Shown: piece by piece, positions 19,936 to 28,984 of the stretch | Layout: each line of letters begins with the position of its first letter | How positions within the stretch are numbered: the stretch's first letter is position 1 | Origin: Nitrosomicrobium frigidum (SeqCode) | GTDB taxonomy: Archaea; Thermoproteota; Nitrososphaeria; Nitrososphaerales; Nitrososphaeraceae | NCBI GenBank assembly: GCA_023251115.1 | Contig: JAHEZK010000008.1 | Coordinates: forward strand, 1 to 50,772 | Direction: 5' to 3' | Length of the DNA: 50,772 bases | Notes under the pieces: model-generated | The model's input: the letters and a program-made list of their open reading frames with translations, nothing else | What the model was told of the DNA's origin: nothing | The model's database searches: none | Made by a program: the position numbers and the translations under genes

Positions 19936-21447
19936 TTGGATTCGGTTTCTGTTGCATTGATTTATGCGATAAATAAGGGATATCAAGTTCATCCTGATGC
20001 TTTCGCCTTTCTAAAATCTCTTGATTGTGATGTTGAAAAAATAATCAAGACCATAGTTGATGCTAAAAATAAATTCAAAAAAAAGTCACCAATATTAATC
20101 GATGATATAAAAAGTGCAATTTCTGGGGATAGTGATAATAATGATCATATTGACGAACCGGTCATAGCTGACACTAACTCAGAAAGTAATGGGGAAAATT
20201 ACAAGATCATTTTTGACCCTACGTATAAGATAAACGCACAAGACGATAAGGATTTTGTTAAATTATTTGATAGCCGATACAGAAAAACTCTGAAAATATT
20301 ATCAATACGTTCGGAAAGCAGGCAAATAAGAAAAATAAAACAAATTAAGGATCTTAGGAATAAATCCAGGTACACTTCTTTAGAGAGCGAGGGTGAAAGG
20401 GGAAGGACATTTGATTCTGCATTCGTGGCAGGATTGATTATGTCAAAGAGAAATAGAAAAAATGATGTAGAGCTGATCATTGATGATACTACTGGCAGTA
20501 TTCCCGTGATATGTAAAACAAGGGAGCTTATCAATGAATCATCAACGCTTGTCTTGGATCAAATGCTGATGTTGGAAATTTCGGTTGGTAAAAGAAATTC
20601 AACTGATTTTGTAATTAAAGATATTATTTTTCCCGACATTCCAGAACATGTTGCGTCAAAATCTGGTACAGAGTCGTATGTAGCCCTTATTTCAGATTTA
20701 CATGTAGGTAGCAAATATTTTATGGAAAGTGAATTCAATGACTTTGTAAATTGGCTATCTTCAGATGACGATGAAATTGTACGAAAAATCAAATTTGTTT
20801 GTATAGCAGGAGATATAGTTGATGGAATAGGAATTTATCCTAATCAGGATAGAGAACTAATCGACATAAATATTAACAAGCAAATTTCCTATGCGGCGGC
20901 CCTACTCCAAAAAATTCCCAAAAGGATGCATGTGTTTTTGATTCCCGGTAATCATGATCCTGGAAGAAGAGCCTTACCGCAGACTGCGTTGACAAACTTG
21001 CGTGATTTTCAACCCTTGGAAAACTTTAGTATTTTAGGTAACCCCTCATATGTTGAATTAAACAAAGTCAAGTTATTGATGTTCCATGGCCAGAGTTTGG
21101 ATGATGTGATTGCTACAGTCCCGGGATTGAGTTATTCGAAACCTGTGGAAGCAATGAAAATTTTATTGAAATCTAGACATTTGTCACCAATATATGGCAA
21201 CCGTACTCCAATTGCTCCAGAGTCCGAGGACATGTTGGTGATAGATGACGTTCCTGACATATTCCATGCCGGGCATGTACATATCACCCAAGTTGGGAGA
21301 TACAAGGGAACACTTATGGTAAACTCTGGAGCATGGCAAAAACAGACAAAATTTCAACAAACAATGGGTGTTACGCCGACTCCTGGAATTTGTGTATTAG
21401 TCAATCTGGCAACCCTTCAATTTCTTAAAAAAGATTTCAATTATTAA
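19936..21447 (+). CDS. polB: DNA polymerase D small subunit DP1 (proofreading exonuclease)
   Basis: DP1 is the 3'-5' exonuclease subunit of archaeal replicative polymerase D. The N-terminal part (residues 1-110) is helical and charged, an OB-fold region follows, and the C-terminal half is a calcineurin-like phosphoesterase with intact motifs: LISDLHVGSKYF, IAGDIVDGIG, IPGNHDPGRRA, MFHGQSLDD and HAGHVHITQ. The length of 503 aa is typical. The start is TTG 19936. Its 3' end overlaps the orc1/cdc6 3' end by 11 bp in convergent orientation. DP2 is encoded 4 kb to the right on the same strand. Confidence 0.96.
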   Translation: MDSVSVALIYAINKGYQVHPDAFAFLKSLDCDVEKIIKTIVDAKNKFKKKSPILIDDIKSAISGDSDNNDHIDEPVIADTNSESNGENYKIIFDPTYKINAQDDKDFVKLFDSRYRKTLKILSIRSESRQIRKIKQIKDLRNKSRYTSLESEGERGRTFDSAFVAGLIMSKRNRKNDVELIIDDTTGSIPVICKTRELINESSTLVLDQMLMLEISVGKRNSTDFVIKDIIFPDIPEHVASKSGTESYVALISDLHVGSKYFMESEFNDFVNWLSSDDDEIVRKIKFVCIAGDIVDGIGIYPNQDRELIDININKQISYAAALLQKIPKRMHVFLIPGNHDPGRRALPQTALTNLRDFQPLENFSILGNPSYVELNKVKLLMFHGQSLDDVIATVPGLSYSKPVEAMKILLKSRHLSPIYGNRTPIAPESEDMLVIDDVPDIFHAGHVHITQVGRYKGTLMVNSGAWQKQTKFQQTMGVTPTPGICVLVNLATLQFLKKDFNY

Positions 21448-22666
21448 TGTCATGAATTAGAGGCGACAGAATTGGATCACTTCTAATAGCTTCCTTTACA
21501 GACGAAATGGGAATATGCAGTTTTATTCTTTGGGTCCTGCCGTACCGGCCCTGGTTCACAATATTGGTCGTTATCAATCCTAGTTGATCCAACTCTCCAA
21601 CAATTTGTGTCATCCTTCTCTGAGTTAGCGGCTCCTGTTGAAGTCTTGAGCAAAAATTTTGATAGATTGAATAAATTTCTCCAGTACTTGAATTTTTAGA
21701 TCTTATTGTAGAAAGAATTACCAATTTGGTATGGAGAGTTGAGTTGCTCAATATTTCAAAGTTGGTGTCGCTGTCAATTTTCTTTTGCGCATGTCTGATG
21801 TGTTCTTCTGAAATTTTCATTGTCATTGATCTTTCTGCAATTTCAGCAGCAACTCTCAAAAGGTCAATGGCCTTTCGAGCATCGCCTGTTTCTCTACCGG
21901 CGATTGCAGCACATAAATTGATAACGCCACTAGGAATGACGTTGTCATAGAATGCAAGTTTGCATCTGTCAATTAAAATTTGTTTTAATTGTTCTATTGT
22001 GTATGGGTTGAAAACTAGTTCTTCTTCGCTTAAACTACTCTTGACTCTTGGGTCTAGTTTATCCTTAAAAGTTAAGCTATTCGAAATACCGATCAAGCTA
22101 ATGAATTGTTCTGAAGAAATTCTTTCATTAGCTCTTGTAAAGTTATACAAAATATCATCGCCTTTTTTATTGACAAGTGAGTCTATTTCATCTATGACAA
22201 GCACAACCTTGATTGACTTGCGTTTTATGAAGTCAAGTATTCTGTCCGTGGCTTCGCTCATAGACAGGCCTGTAAAAAACACTTGCATTTTTTTTTCTTC
22301 TTTATTTATGCCAAGTAATTCAGCGATTTCATATAGTATCTTGTATGGTGTGTTTGAATTCTTTGCGTTAATAAATGGCACTTGGAGATTAATGTCAAGT
22401 TGTTTGGTCTTGTTATAAAGGTGGTCAATGACGTTTTTTACTACAGCTGTCTTTCCTGTTCCAGGTTTTCCAAAAATCAACAAATTAGATGGACGCCCTT
22501 TTTTTAGTATGACAGACAGAGATTGTGCGATTGCAGTGCTTTCTTTAGTTCTGAATAATAGCTTATCAGGAACGTAGTCTATAGTCAGGACTTGCCTGTT
22601 TTTTATAATATTCTTATTCTTAATTGCGCTATCAAAAATAGTGTCTAATATGTCATCATCATCCAA
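21437..22666 (-). CDS. orc1/cdc6: Replication initiator Orc1/Cdc6
   Basis: Orc1/Cdc6 binds origin ORB sequences and loads MCM. The AAA+ domain shows Walker A GKPGTGKT (residues 66-73), Walker B VLVIDEIDSL, sensor 1 region LIGISNS, and sensor 2 GDARKAIDLLR. A C-terminal winged-helix domain follows (about residues 310-400, ending HIPISSVKEAIRSDPILSPL). The length of 409 aa is normal. The start is TTG 22666 (no ATG at the N-terminus). Its promoter lies in the adjacent 430-bp region that carries four ORB-like elements, so it may regulate itself. Confidence 0.96.
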   Translation of the reverse strand: MDDDDILDTIFDSAIKNKNIIKNRQVLTIDYVPDKLLFRTKESTAIAQSLSVILKKGRPSNLLIFGKPGTGKTAVVKNVIDHLYNKTKQLDINLQVPFINAKNSNTPYKILYEIAELLGINKEEKKMQVFFTGLSMSEATDRILDFIKRKSIKVVLVIDEIDSLVNKKGDDILYNFTRANERISSEQFISLIGISNSLTFKDKLDPRVKSSLSEEELVFNPYTIEQLKQILIDRCKLAFYDNVIPSGVINLCAAIAGRETGDARKAIDLLRVAAEIAERSMTMKISEEHIRHAQKKIDSDTNFEILSNSTLHTKLVILSTIRSKNSSTGEIYSIYQNFCSRLQQEPLTQRRMTQIVGELDQLGLITTNIVNQGRYGRTQRIKLHIPISSVKEAIRSDPILSPLIHDINN

Positions 22667-22683
22667 TTACAGACGCCTCCGGC

Positions 22684-22701
22684 ACCCCTCTTTTTCTCCT
22701 G
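22684..22701 (-). repeat. ORB-like element 1
   Basis: The minus strand reads CAGGAGAAAAAGAGGGGT. It keeps the CAG...GAAA core and the G-tract of the archaeal ORB. It lies on the orc1 side of the AT-rich stretch, G-tract toward orc1. Confidence 0.6.
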
Positions 22702-22732
22702 TATCTCAATACAATAAACTCATTTAGTACGT

Positions 22733-22828
22733 GGTATATATATAAAATAAAAACTCCTAAATCAATTTTCTTTTATTTATTTGTTAATTGTCATCATTTC
22801 TATAATCAGTTGAGACATATAAAATTTC
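22733..22828. other. AT-rich stretch, candidate duplex unwinding element
   Basis: The stretch contains TATATATATAAAATAAAAA and TTTTCTTTTATTTATTTG with few G/C bases, and is flanked by inverted ORB-like elements. It may also hold the orc1 promoter. Confidence 0.6.
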
Positions 22829-22848
22829 AATGAGAAATGCAGGGGTGG
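22829..22848 (+). repeat. ORB-like element 2 (inverted)
   Basis: The plus strand reads AATGAGAAATGCAGGGGTGG. The orientation is opposite to elements 1, 3 and 4. GAGAAAT and AGGGGT match the shared core; the middle differs at two bases. Confidence 0.6.
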
Positions 22849-22909
22849 AGTAACCACCTTATTTACTGTTAATGTTTGTTAACTCAAAAGTAGAAAAAAC
22901 TCCTTGATA

Positions 22910-22929
22910 TGACCCCTTTATTTCTAGTG
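22910..22929 (-). repeat. ORB-like element 3
   Basis: The minus strand reads CACTAGAAATAAAGGGGTCA, differing from element 4 at one position in 20. It starts 61 bp before element 4 in the same orientation. Confidence 0.75.
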
Positions 22930-22970
22930 CAGACTAATTAACAGATATCTACAATGTAAAGACAGCAACA

Positions 22971-22990
22971 TGACCCCTTTATTTCTACTG
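22971..22990 (-). repeat. ORB-like element 4 (best match)
   Basis: The minus strand reads CAGTAGAAATAAAGGGGTCA and is preceded by TTTTC, so the dyad part TTCCAGTAGAAA is also present, as in canonical archaeal ORBs. Confidence 0.8.
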
Positions 22991-23096
22991 GAAAATATTT
23001 GGTAAAGGTTATCGCAAAATTGATAACTACAATTGTGTCAATGATGCTCGAATACTACGTGATAATTAGTTAACAATAGCTGAGCTCTTTGTTAGC

Positions 23097-23618
23097 TTGT
23101 TAATCACTTTAATTGTTAAGTGTGATGTGATTTCAAATCCCATTCTGTCCGTCTCAAGAAAAAAGATTAGAATCGAATTGGAGGATGAAAATGGGGAAAA
23201 ATACAACTTAACTCTCCAAGGGACTTTATCAAAAGAAAAGATAATGAATCTAATTGAATTTGTGCAATTGTTTGAAAAAAATTCTATCAATACCAGTCCA
23301 GAGCATAGAGAAGGCGGTACAAAATTAGCCTCAAAGTTATGGAATTTAATTGCCGAGAACTTTAGATATCACGCCTTTACCTCATCTGATCTAGCAAAAA
23401 TTTACAAGGATATGTACTATGATTCTATCCAGCTAAGTGTCGCCTCTATCTACTTGTCACGATTCTATCTGAAAAAACAGCTTACAAGATCAAAAAACGG
23501 CAAACAATGGGTTTACGCCATTGTTAAAGAAAGCCAAAATAACATTGGCGAATATTTAGAAAAATCTAACCATCCGAAATTGTTGTCTGTTCCAACAGTT
23601 TACGACCTTCACCTGTGA
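23097..23618 (+). CDS. Origin-adjacent hypothetical protein (up to 173 aa)
   Basis: No named family is recognised. The N-terminal third is beta-strand-like (RKKIRIELEDENGEKYNLTL). The C-terminal two thirds are helical, with a probable winged-helix part (FTSSDLAKIYKDMY, then SVASIYLSRFYLKKQLTRSK and a KQWVYAIV wing). A DNA-binding role is plausible. TTG 23097 and the in-frame GTG 23127 are both possible starts. It is the first gene to the right of the predicted origin, and its 3' end overlaps the convergent membrane-wHTH gene by 53 bp. Confidence 0.75.
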   Translation: MLITLIVKCDVISNPILSVSRKKIRIELEDENGEKYNLTLQGTLSKEKIMNLIEFVQLFEKNSINTSPEHREGGTKLASKLWNLIAENFRYHAFTSSDLAKIYKDMYYDSIQLSVASIYLSRFYLKKQLTRSKNGKQWVYAIVKESQNNIGEYLEKSNHPKLLSVPTVYDLHL

Positions 23619-24743: not shown

Positions 24744-25490
24744 ATGATGGAAATACAGAGCACAGAACAATACATTTTGAATGAAATCAAGAGACAAAAG
24801 ACATTGTGTTTTCCACTTATAGACTCTGAAAACTCCTTTAAGACAATAGAGCTGGCAAAAAAATTAGAACAGCTAGGAGCTTCAGCAATTTTAGTTGGTG
24901 GCTCATCAACTTCAGATCAAATTGAATTGTCTAGTTTTGTGACGGAATTAAAGAAGAATGTCAAGATTCCTGTTATTCTATTTCCAGGAAATATCACAGG
25001 AATATCACCAGCGGCAGACGCAATTTTATTTAGCTCGTTACTAAACTCCGAAAATCCATATTATATCACAGGCGCCCAAGCGCAAGGAGCCTTAGTTGTA
25101 AATAAGTATAATATAGAAGCCATTCCTACCGGCTATCTCATAATTGGAGATGGGTCTACTGCCTGGTTCATAGGTCAAGCCAAGTCCATCCCATTTAACA
25201 AATCAAATATTGCAGTAATGTACGCCCTAGCTGCTCTGTATATGGGCATGCGATTTCTATATCTTGAAGCTGGATCCGGCGCGTCACAAAATATTCCACC
25301 AGAAATGGTAAGCACCGTAAAAAAATACTATAAAGGAATATTGATAGTTGGTGGTGGGATTAATTCTGCGGAAACCGCAAAAAAAATATCTGATGCTGGG
25401 GCAGACATCATAGTTATTGGTACTATGATTGAAAAAGTAAAGGACTGGGAGTCAGAATTTGTTAACATCATCAAAGCACTAAGAAATTGA
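24744..25490 (+). CDS. Geranylgeranylglyceryl phosphate synthase
   Basis: This enzyme joins geranylgeranyl diphosphate to glycerol-1-phosphate, the first committed step of archaeal ether lipids. The 248-aa TIM barrel shows ILVGGSSTSDQ, VILFPGNITGISPAADAILF, the family-typical YLEAGSGASQNIP and the phosphate-binding ILIVGGGINSAETAKKI. The start is ATG 24744, with a second ATG next to it. Its stop overlaps the DP2 start by 4 bp (TTGA), so lipid synthesis and replication genes are translationally coupled here. Confidence 0.95.
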   Translation: MMEIQSTEQYILNEIKRQKTLCFPLIDSENSFKTIELAKKLEQLGASAILVGGSSTSDQIELSSFVTELKKNVKIPVILFPGNITGISPAADAILFSSLLNSENPYYITGAQAQGALVVNKYNIEAIPTGYLIIGDGSTAWFIGQAKSIPFNKSNIAVMYALAALYMGMRFLYLEAGSGASQNIPPEMVSTVKKYYKGILIVGGGINSAETAKKISDAGADIIVIGTMIEKVKDWESEFVNIIKALRN

Positions 25491-28400
25491 CTAATCATGC
25501 TAATGAAAACCAGGATACTCAAATTCCATCATATTATGTAAAATATCACCAAAAAATTTCAAAATATCTTGAAGACGCCATTTCTGTAGCCCAAGAGGCT
25601 AAAAAAAAGGGTCTCGATGTTTCTGATAAAGTTGAATCGCCGATAGGATACGACTTACCAGACAGGATAGCAAAGATACACGAAATTGATATTTCCAGTA
25701 GATTAAGAATACTGCTGCCAGAACTAGGAAAAGAACTAACTGCATTAAAGATAGCCGAGGAAATTGTACTTGGAAAATACGGGGGAATCACTATTGAAGA
25801 AAGACTAAACAATGCGGTAAGAGTAGGACTATCCGTTGTAACTGAAGGTGTGACTGTAGCCCCTCTACAAGGAATCTACGATGTTAAAATAAAAACAAAT
25901 GCCAATAAATCTGAATATTTATCAGTTTCTTTTGCTGGTCCAATAAGATCCGCAGGTGGAACTGAAGCTGCCGTAACTATGCTGATAGCTGATCACGTCA
26001 GAAGAATTGTAGGATTAGACAAGTACATAGCAAATTCATTTGACGATGAAATTAGTAGATATGTTGAAGAATTAAGGATTTATGAAAGAGAAGTGGGAAA
26101 TTTCCAGTTTAAGGTTTCAGATAAGGATGTCATCCATTGCGTAAGTTCTCTTCCTGTAGAAATTGATGGGGTTGATACGGATCCTGTAGAGGTCGTGGGT
26201 CATCGGAATCTTCAAAGAGTTTCTACCAACAGAGTTCGTGGAGGTGCACTAAGGGTAATGAATGATGGTTTGATAGGTAGAAGCAGAAAATTATTGAAGA
26301 TTGTGGAGACCCTGAAACTGGAAGGATGGGAGTGGCTCAAAACTCTTGAAGGAGCAATTCAAACTCCAGAGGATGATGCTGTATCCCACAGGATGACTGA
26401 AGTCATCACCGGAAGACCTGTTCTTTCAATGCAGAAAAAAATCGGCGGTTTTAGATTACGGTATGGCCGATGCTGCAATACTGGATTTGCCACAATCGGA
26501 ATACACCCAACTATTCCAATATTATTAAACTACGCAATTGCTGTAGGCACACAAATAAAAATTGACGCACCAGGAAAGGCTTCAACTATTGCGCTAGTAG
26601 ACAGTATCGAGCCACCAATAGTAAAACTCAATGATGGAAGCGTTATGAAAATAGAATCAATAAATCAAGCAAAATCCATAGCAAGTAAGGTTACAAAAAT
26701 TCTTTACCTAGGTGATATTCTAATTAGCTACGGCGATTTTCTTGAAAACAATACTCAGCTTCTTCCTTCATCATACGTTGAAGAGATTTGGGCTCTGGAA
26801 TTAGAAAGTAAGCTTGCCAGCAAGGACCCTGATTCATATTTTAAAATATTTGATAGGGAAAGGTTAACCGAATTAGTTCAACATCCATTAGAAAAGAAAC
26901 CATCAATTATTGAAGCATTTAAGATTAGTCAATTTTTCGAAATACCTCTTTATCCTGGATATGTTCTTTACTGGACTGCGTTAACTCTAGATGAATTCAA
27001 CCATCTAATAACGAAATTGATGGAAAGTGGAGAGTCGATAAAAAATACAAATGAGAGAGCTTCTTTAGTTTATGATTCAGAAGTAAAAAAAACTCTTGAA
27101 AAACTTGGTATAATTCATTCGCTTTCTCTTGAGGGCAGCAGAATAAGGATAGACGATCCTGATCAACTCTACATACTCAGGGAATTGATAACAAAGTGTA
27201 TCGATTATGGATCAAAAATCAACAAACTCTTGGAATCAAGCTTTGTCTTGGACACTGATCCAAACTATACCAAGACACATATTTTGGATGTCATCTCCCA
27301 GTTACTAAATGTTAGTATAAAAGAAAAATTTTCTTCTTCAATAGCTGTTCGTGTTGGGCGCCCGGAAAAGGCTGCAGAAAGGAAAATGAAACCTCCAGTT
27401 CATGTCTTATTCCCGATTGGGACAAACGGTGGACCAACCAGGGATATTTTGAAAGCGATGCAAAGACCACTATATATTGAAATTGCGAACAGATTTTGCA
27501 GCAACTGTAAATCACCATCAATATCTGTTTCGTGTCAAGATTGTCTCTCTAACACCCCTATTCGGATAATGTGCTCAACCTGTAGATATGAAGTTAATGA
27601 TGAGGAGTCAAGTGGACATTGTCCTGTTTGCGGGAATCGTCTAAAAACACACTCGCCTACCAATTATCCTCTCAAAACAGTGGTTGAAAAGGCCAAAAGA
27701 CATCTGGAAATACAACCAGTAGAGCCACTTAAAGGTGTCAAATTCCTGATGGGCAAAAATCGATGTGCAGAGCCTATAGAGAAAGGTATCTTAAGGCAAA
27801 AGCACAATTTGTATACTTTTAAGGATGGAACTATACGCTTTGATGCCACAAACGAACCTCTAACTCATTTTAAGCCCAAATGGATTAAGACAGATATTAC
27901 AAAATTAAGAGATCTGGGATATCATAGAGACCATGTAGGAAATAACTTGGAGTCAACTGATCAGCTGCTAGAATTATTCATACAGGATGTAATAATCCCA
28001 ATTCACGCTGCTGAACACTTGGTAAAAATTGCACAGTTCGTAGATGAAGAACTCATTAGATTCTATGGACTTGATGCATTTTATAAGATAGGTTCAATTG
28101 ACGACTTGATTGGACACTTTATTATTGGTTTAGCACCGCACACATCGGTAGGTATAATCGGAAGGGTAATTGGATTCGTCAATTCCCAAGTTTGCCTAGG
28201 TTCACCAATCTGGCATTCTGCCAAACGAAGAGACTGTGATGGTGACGCAGATTCTATAATGTTACTAATGGATACTTTTCTAAACTTTTCAAAGGAATAT
28301 TTGCCAGATAGAATTGGTGGCCTAATGGACGCACCTTTACTTATTCAACCTCTAGTATTTCCACATGAAGTTCAAAGGCAGGCCCATAACATAGATGTCG

Positions 28401-28984
28401 ATGAAAGATACCCATTGGATTTCTATACATCTTCTTGGAATATGGAAAAAACCAATCTATTTGACAACATTGATCTTATCAAAAAAAGATTAGGTCATCC
28501 AAATCAATTCTTTGATTATAAATTCACTCATACTACGGACAATATTATGCTAGATGAATCACACAGTTTGTATTCAACCCTGAGCACTATGGAAGAAAAA
28601 CTACAGATGCAGATAAGCACAGCCAAGCTAATCAACGCAGTTGACGCAGATGAAGTGATGTCCATGGTATTAACGACCCATATTTTGCCGGATATAATGG
28701 GAAATTTAAGGGCTTATTCATCACAATCATTTAGGTGTACCAAATGTGGACAAAAATACAGACGAATGCCACTTGCAGGTCGATGTCTGGAATGTCATAA
28801 TGTATTGTTACAAACTGTCACACGGGGTTCCGTTGAAAAATATGTACAGACTGCATTGAACATCTGTTCAGAATTTAAGATAAACGAATATCTGACAAGC
28901 AGGATTAACACATTACAAACAGAACTAAATTTACTTTTTAAACAAAACATCAAAGATCAGCACACAATTATCGATTTCATTTAG
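25487..28984 (+). CDS. polC: DNA polymerase D large subunit DP2 (catalytic)
   Basis: DP2 is the polymerising subunit of archaeal PolD, with a two-barrel active site related to RNA polymerase. The 1165-aa protein is full length with no intein. Visible landmarks are the conserved SVSFAGPIRSAGGTEAA (near residue 150) and VRVGRPEKAAERKMKPPVH. A zinc-ribbon region with CSNC, CQDC, CSTC and CPVCG follows (about 670-720). The catalytic KRRDCDGDADSIMLLMD is near residue 920, and a C-terminal zinc ribbon CTKC...CLEC is at about 1085-1105. The start is TTG, overlapping the GGGP synthase stop. The end (KQNIKDQHTIIDFI) may contact PCNA. Confidence 0.97.
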   Translation: MTNHANENQDTQIPSYYVKYHQKISKYLEDAISVAQEAKKKGLDVSDKVESPIGYDLPDRIAKIHEIDISSRLRILLPELGKELTALKIAEEIVLGKYGGITIEERLNNAVRVGLSVVTEGVTVAPLQGIYDVKIKTNANKSEYLSVSFAGPIRSAGGTEAAVTMLIADHVRRIVGLDKYIANSFDDEISRYVEELRIYEREVGNFQFKVSDKDVIHCVSSLPVEIDGVDTDPVEVVGHRNLQRVSTNRVRGGALRVMNDGLIGRSRKLLKIVETLKLEGWEWLKTLEGAIQTPEDDAVSHRMTEVITGRPVLSMQKKIGGFRLRYGRCCNTGFATIGIHPTIPILLNYAIAVGTQIKIDAPGKASTIALVDSIEPPIVKLNDGSVMKIESINQAKSIASKVTKILYLGDILISYGDFLENNTQLLPSSYVEEIWALELESKLASKDPDSYFKIFDRERLTELVQHPLEKKPSIIEAFKISQFFEIPLYPGYVLYWTALTLDEFNHLITKLMESGESIKNTNERASLVYDSEVKKTLEKLGIIHSLSLEGSRIRIDDPDQLYILRELITKCIDYGSKINKLLESSFVLDTDPNYTKTHILDVISQLLNVSIKEKFSSSIAVRVGRPEKAAERKMKPPVHVLFPIGTNGGPTRDILKAMQRPLYIEIANRFCSNCKSPSISVSCQDCLSNTPIRIMCSTCRYEVNDEESSGHCPVCGNRLKTHSPTNYPLKTVVEKAKRHLEIQPVEPLKGVKFLMGKNRCAEPIEKGILRQKHNLYTFKDGTIRFDATNEPLTHFKPKWIKTDITKLRDLGYHRDHVGNNLESTDQLLELFIQDVIIPIHAAEHLVKIAQFVDEELIRFYGLDAFYKIGSIDDLIGHFIIGLAPHTSVGIIGRVIGFVNSQVCLGSPIWHSAKRRDCDGDADSIMLLMDTFLNFSKEYLPDRIGGLMDAPLLIQPLVFPHEVQRQAHNIDVDERYPLDFYTSSWNMEKTNLFDNIDLIKKRLGHPNQFFDYKFTHTTDNIMLDESHSLYSTLSTMEEKLQMQISTAKLINAVDADEVMSMVLTTHILPDIMGNLRAYSSQSFRCTKCGQKYRRMPLAGRCLECHNVLLQTVTRGSVEKYVQTALNICSEFKINEYLTSRINTLQTELNLLFKQNIKDQHTIIDFI

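Follow-up and report, generated by a model that had tools for sequence, protein, structure and literature searches.

Few archaeal replication origins have been mapped, and to our knowledge their non-initiator parts are hardly known. The Sulfolobus origin oriC1 has an inverted pair of ORB elements flanking an AT-rich stretch, in the order ORB3-DUE-ORB2 (PMC12141716). Orc1 origins of the Sulfolobales can also hold a second, non-ORB motif, ucm, which has its own binding protein, UBP (PMC12141716). The common archaeal ORB is given as TCCA[CG]T[TG]GAAA[TC][GA]AAGGGGT (Ori-Finder 2 / DoriC; PMC4164010). For Nitrosopumilus maritimus, the passages of PMC4010727 and PMC4588119 that draw on Pelve et al. 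2013 give a single mapped origin. The predicted origin of Nitrosocaldus cavascurensis is placed, in the relevant passage of PMC5797428, before the ORB repeats and the cdc gene by analogy with N. maritimus.

The locus described here appears, as far as those passages describe them, to be of the same class as the N. maritimus and N. cavascurensis origins. It lies in a window of 50,772 nucleotides (the whole stretch of DNA that was analysed), part of contig C32 (52,969 bp) in a genome of 1.80 Mb, 137 contigs and 91% completeness. This genome contains archaeal amoA, and the nearest named relatives of the window are Nitrososphaeraceae/Nitrososphaerales records, so the source is an ammonia-oxidising archaeon. 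We have little doubt that the locus is where this ammonia-oxidising member of the Nitrososphaeraceae begins to replicate its chromosome, as an Orc1-1-type origin; probably the genome has no other of this type. The call is supported because the layout is conserved, the ORB is nearly unique to the locus, the initiator matches Orc1-1/ORC1, and strand skew switches here in three of four complete relatives. The features are collected in the table.

Table. Features of the origin and its gene neighbourhood, with positions in the window
Feature	Position	Strand	Remarks
DNA polymerase D small subunit (DP1) gene	19936..21447	+	
orc1/cdc6 initiator gene	21437..22666	-	409 aa, Orc1-1 type; Pfam Cdc6_lid + Cdc6_C; TIGR02928
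ORB D (copy 1)	22684..22703	-	TACAGGAGAAAAAGAGGGGT; PWM 27.3, own copies left out
AT-rich stretch	22704..22826		candidate duplex unwinding element and presumed orc1/cdc6 promoter, from composition and layout
TTAACA box 1	22782..22787	-	
ORB C (copy 2), inverted	22827..22846	+	TCAATGAGAAATGCAGGGGT; PWM 24.5
TTAACA box 2	22867..22872	-	
TTAACA box 3	22877..22882	-	within GTTAAC
ORB B (copy 3)	22912..22931	-	TGCACTAGAAATAAAGGGGT; PWM 27.7
TTAACA box 4	22938..22943	+	in ORB A-B spacer
Degenerate TTAACAnTGTTAA palindrome	22948..22960	-	TTTACATTGTAGA; 3 mismatches; centred in ORB A-B spacer
ORB A (copy 4), best copy	22973..22992	-	TCCAGTAGAAATAAAGGGGT; PWM 32.4
TTAACA box 5	23070..23075	+	within GTTAAC; block conserved in genus
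TTAACA box 6	23098..23103	-	block conserved in genus
TTAACA box 7	23114..23119	-	block conserved in genus
Divergent winged-helix protein gene	23127..23618	+	from family alignment; start uncertain, ORF opens at 23097
DNA polymerase D large subunit (DP2) gene	25487..28984	+	

The initiator gene beside the origin has a TTG start with GGAGG upstream. The best PDB matches of its product are Sulfolobus Orc1-1 (2qby_A, 6.6e-89) and Aeropyrum ORC1 (2v1u_A, 7.3e-87), and its winged-helix stretch (TQRR..., GRYG) is conserved. The divergent gene encodes a protein for which an AF2 model predicts a winged helix at pLDDT above 90, with ArsR/SmtB/PadR-like folds; searched against the PDB, this protein had no match by sequence alone, and a profile gave only E 0.017 or worse. 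Members of its family neighbour origins across much of the order, and also do so in Bathyarchaeia. Between 19936 and 28984 the window holds, in turn, DP1, cdc6, the origin, the winged-helix gene, a PcrB-like gene and DP2, so that both polymerase D subunits flank the origin. Most of the family shows the same grouping; several Nitrosocosmicus-like loci are exceptions, with DP1 elsewhere.

The four ORB copies reported in the initial annotation, written here as 20-mers with GGGGT at the end, are all real, and the positions given for them were correct within 2 bp. Their arrangement is also as it had described. ORBs C and D are inverted, with their G-tracts outward, on the two sides of a very AT-rich stretch (22702-22828 is 79.5% AT, and only 0.26% of 127-bp windows are equally AT-rich), and ORBs A and B are direct repeats 61 bp apart. 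ORB D sits between the orc1/cdc6 start codon, which is within about 40 bp, and the promoter-like AT stretch. When a matrix was built from the genus while excluding the four sequences of the window, it recovered exactly these sites in the 50 kb, with scores of 24.5-32.4; the next site reached 10.8, and 20 shuffled windows gave 15.5 at most.

This layout is kept in 12 of 12 sampled genus genomes. Read in the direction of cdc6, the elements upstream of the gene are ORB A, ORB B, the inverted ORB C and, close to the start codon, ORB D. This order recurs in the family outside the genus; across 34 Nitrososphaeraceae origins, A and B are spaced 60-63 bp apart. A modified form extends across the order, Bathyarchaeia and Aigarchaeota-type loci; in most loci of the last two groups A, C and D remain but the A-B pair is lacking. 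ORB C remains an inverted element in the 12 genus genomes and most relatives, and ORB D aligns in all 12, with an equivalent site in other families. Among the families compared, f1 is Nitrososphaeraceae, and we infer that f8 is Nitrosopumilaceae and f2 Nitrosocaldaceae. The ORBs of f8 are TGGAGTGGAAATAAAGGGGT-like. In f2 (L105-L107, L250, L251) a GGTGT ending replaces GGGGT, and these origins have up to three direct ORB copies, with a 41-bp spacing beside a 60-bp one.

The resemblance to archaeal ORBs seen at the outset is borne out by the genus consensus, TCCAGTGGAAATAAAGGGGT, which fits the published common archaeal motif exactly (PMC4164010). The window's own copies have dyads that are degenerate relative to this consensus and carry at least one mismatch to the common motif in the dyad half, ORB A having one mismatch against the regular expression (PMC4164010). 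Because the consensus fits the published motif, the genus defines no new ORB. The initial annotation had proposed both an Orc1-dependent origin and an element set that could define the ORB of the group. The former is supported by the layout, the near-unique ORB, the initiator match and the skew in three of four relatives; the latter is not supported, the element being the common archaeal ORB already published (PMC4164010), and an origin of the phylum having already been mapped in N. maritimus, according to the passages cited above.

A search for the element across the genome, which had been proposed as a check, found it nearly confined to this locus. The 17-mer TGACCCCTTTATTTCTA occurs exactly twice in the whole 1.80-Mb genome, both times at this locus, and at 3 mismatches it is found in five places elsewhere, versus 20 for a reversed-pattern control. 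In a set of 13 genomes, a search that allowed up to 3 mismatches placed the ORB almost exclusively at this locus, and the control gave 0-1 hits per genome. A genome-wide pattern, GGGGT-13N-TTAACNNNGTTA, was discarded as too strict, its control hits being about as many as its real ones.

One ORB-like element lies singly outside the origin, at G000:C6:5472-5493 on the minus strand, and reads [TC]AGAGTGGAAAnnnAGGGGTTC followed by TTAGTAAGATTCTTACnTAAGAATCGTTCC. Such a distal element (L190-L196, L238, L244-L249) is present in 7 of 12 genus genomes, with a weaker version in an eighth. It lies in a gene-poor stretch and adjoins the same small secreted-protein genes even though the flanks diverge, and it is possibly a candidate Orc1 site away from the origin. 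An Rfam search of the distal loci and the window returned only three tRNAs, all in the window.

The genome also encodes a second Orc1/Cdc6 paralogue (G000:C35:11550-12704; 29% identical). It turned up in every sampled genome of the genus and in most of the family; the complete genomes of genus g2 and families f2, f3 and f8 gave no copy of it. No word of the [AG]GGGGT/ACCCC[TC] type occurs in up to 400 bp upstream of this gene in 12 genomes. A second Orc1/Cdc6-defined origin in the genome was considered and rejected, as no ORB-like cluster lies in this stretch upstream of the second paralogue. Separately, some assemblies have two close cdc6 copies (G084:C53 and G084:C60; L058 and L059). One of these has an ORB-like element upstream of the second copy (C53), and in another the copies are on two contigs, each with an origin-like region, which both mixed strains and a duplication would fit.

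For the species itself, assembled in 137 contigs, strand skew was read on its own contig, and for complete relatives in sampled 20-kb stretches. Three of the four complete relatives have a switch of third-position keto skew at the cdc6 locus, with side coefficients of 0.087 in G128, 0.023 in G047 and 0.039 in G017 (t = 8.3), and in these three the best skew axis is within about one sampling step of cdc6. The fourth, G068, gave no skew signal at all in the sampled stretches. A skew minimum at the site had been set in advance as a test, and GC skew within the contig does not pass it: the cumulative curve for the window does not bottom out there. Corrected for gene strand, the keto skew of the contig has its strongest split at the locus (t = -5.6), with a sign opposite to that of the relatives. 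Split near 22800, the third-position keto skew of the window is +0.061 on the left and -0.046 on the right. The sign of the window is also seen near the origin at ten further genus loci whose flanks could be used, an agreement that is not independent evidence because they have the same genes in the same orientation.

The locus shares with Sulfolobus oriC1 its polar ORBs, an inverted pair flanking an AT-rich stretch, and an adjacent initiator gene of Orc1-1 type. Unlike oriC1, it has a further direct ORB pair at 61 bp and, in place of a ucm match at the origin, TTAACA boxes; and whereas Sulfolobus has three origins, this genome apparently has one ORB cluster. The ucm motif, taken as ATTATACAAAC from the oligonucleotides of the paper, has four 1-mismatch matches in the window, equal to chance, and none within 5 kb of the origin. 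The ucm/UBP system was therefore rejected for this locus, ucm not being in the unwinding element. As a type of element, ucm/UBP in Sulfolobales is nevertheless the nearest precedent. TTAACA, like ucm, is a second, non-ORB motif in an Orc1 origin that is limited to one archaeal lineage, but ucm differs from it in sequence and occurs once, in the DUE, where TTAACA forms many boxes.

The TTAACA repeats were absent from the earlier reading of the region. Seven copies lie within 338 bp (22782-23119), the densest cluster in the 50 kb, and 46 are spread over the remainder. A count of hexamers over 480 bp upstream of cdc6, taken across 32 Nitrososphaeraceae origins, put GTTAAC first in enrichment (142 observed vs 3.3 expected), followed by AGGGGT (111 vs 2.4) and TTAACA (247 vs 15.4). 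In individual origins TTAACA counts are about ten-fold above composition. The TTAACAnTGTTAA palindrome has a fixed position near the centre of the A-B spacer. With up to 2 mismatches allowed, the share of spacers that contain it is 83% within the genus, 59% elsewhere in the family and 50% in the order's other families, versus 0.6-0.7% for shuffled spacers. A literature search for TTAACA with archaeal origins returned no description, and the passages on N. maritimus and N. cavascurensis in the sources above contain no such element, the motif description of Pelve et al. 2013 being outside this comparison.

To place the boxes phylogenetically, TTAACA was counted in the 600 bp upstream of cdc6. 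In the first genome set it is dense in families f1, f2, f3 and f8, whereas few copies occur in f4-f7 and f9-f12 or at Bathyarchaeia, Aigarchaeota-type and Thermoproteia loci. The motif had first been found by after-the-fact enrichment, and 20 further genomes served as an out-of-sample test. In these, the counts were 6 and 6 in f2 and 5 to 13 in f8, with 0 in four of four f9 origins, 1 in f10, 1 and 3 in f11, and 2 in f6. Families f1, f2, f3 and f8 carry amoA, which was not detected in the genomes listed for the remaining families. Families with amoA have 4-17 TTAACA per origin (n=45, mean 9.9), and those of the same order without it 0-3 (n=18, mean 0.67). Origins of the amoA-positive families are also more AT-rich (68% vs 60%), and control words of the same composition have no difference comparable to that of TTAACA. 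At the level of sequence comparison, this shows that dense TTAACA at this spot is confined to ammonia-oxidising archaea among the compared origins. The amoA-positive families are probably one clade, so a single evolutionary event is likely, and a p-value for the counts ignores ancestry; the distribution follows that clade and may be one inherited event.

Several other accounts of these elements were weighed. The ORBs might regulate only orc1/cdc6 transcription, with the active origin elsewhere. The nearness of ORB D to the start codon and the promoter-like stretch fits this idea, as does the lack of a GC-skew minimum at the site on the contig itself. Yet skew switches at this locus in three complete relatives, 13 genomes contain no other ORB cluster, and four polar elements with a conserved 61-bp pair exceed the needs of an operator. 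The single mapped origin of N. maritimus (as given in the citing passage of PMC4010727) and the placement by analogy in N. cavascurensis (the passage of PMC5797428) argue in the same direction, and we consider the account very improbable. That AT-rich DNA and chance alone produced the TTAACA repeats is hardly credible at all: an AT-rich region does raise the frequency of any A/T word, but the control words lack the difference between ammonia oxidisers and other archaea, the excess over composition is seen origin by origin, and the ORBs of the window themselves outscore shuffles.

It is unlikely, though less so, that the TTAACA boxes are operators at which an ordinary transcription factor controls the two divergent genes, in a role unrelated to replication. 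The boxes do lie between those genes, several adjoin the start of the winged-helix gene, and the winged-helix protein could regulate its own gene. However, TTAACA persists in genera without the winged-helix gene at the origin, boxes are missing in families that have this gene beside the origin, and, across families, one box keeps a constant position in the middle of the 61-bp ORB pair. The winged-helix protein is not an obvious reader of TTAACA and was set aside, since the distributions do not match. In favour of the second Orc1/Cdc6 paralogue as reader is its presence throughout the sampled genus and most of the family, but g2, f2, f3 and f8 all have TTAACA boxes and in none was the paralogue found, and some f10 and f11 genomes have the paralogue where the sampled origins are without boxes. 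Its distribution contradicts such a role, and we regard sites for this paralogue as extremely improbable.

Taken as a whole, the locus is best explained, in our view with good confidence, as an Orc1-1-type origin with TTAACA as a second, lineage-specific element. By analogy with Sulfolobus (PMC12141716), Orc1-ATP made from the adjacent gene would bind the ORBs, one per ORB, and the inverted C-D pair would direct MCM loading onto the AT-rich stretch. From the position of ORB D near the orc1 promoter, Orc1 may also repress its own gene. The TTAACA boxes and the palindrome between A and B would be sites of a separate, lineage-specific DNA-binding protein, which, acting between A and B, would shape or activate the origin. 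Such a role could be likened to that of ucm/UBP in Sulfolobus or, at E. coli oriC, of IHF/Fis, none of them related by descent.

The ORB part of this origin is by itself ordinary, and the TTAACA box is the part that is worth specialist attention. The boxes are likely to be functional parts of the origin. We give about even chances to the stronger proposal that TTAACA is an essential second origin element of the ammonia-oxidising archaea, recognised by a dedicated protein that is not known outside them in the archaea and works with Orc1 at the paired ORBs as an initiation cofactor of this lineage, and that this trait is derived and common to all of these archaea. The box can serve as a bait sequence for capturing its binding protein (e.g. 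TTAACAATGTTAA) and as a signature for spotting origins in the many fragmentary genomes of the group. For the non-initiator parts of origins, it offers a concrete, testable candidate in a very abundant group of archaea.
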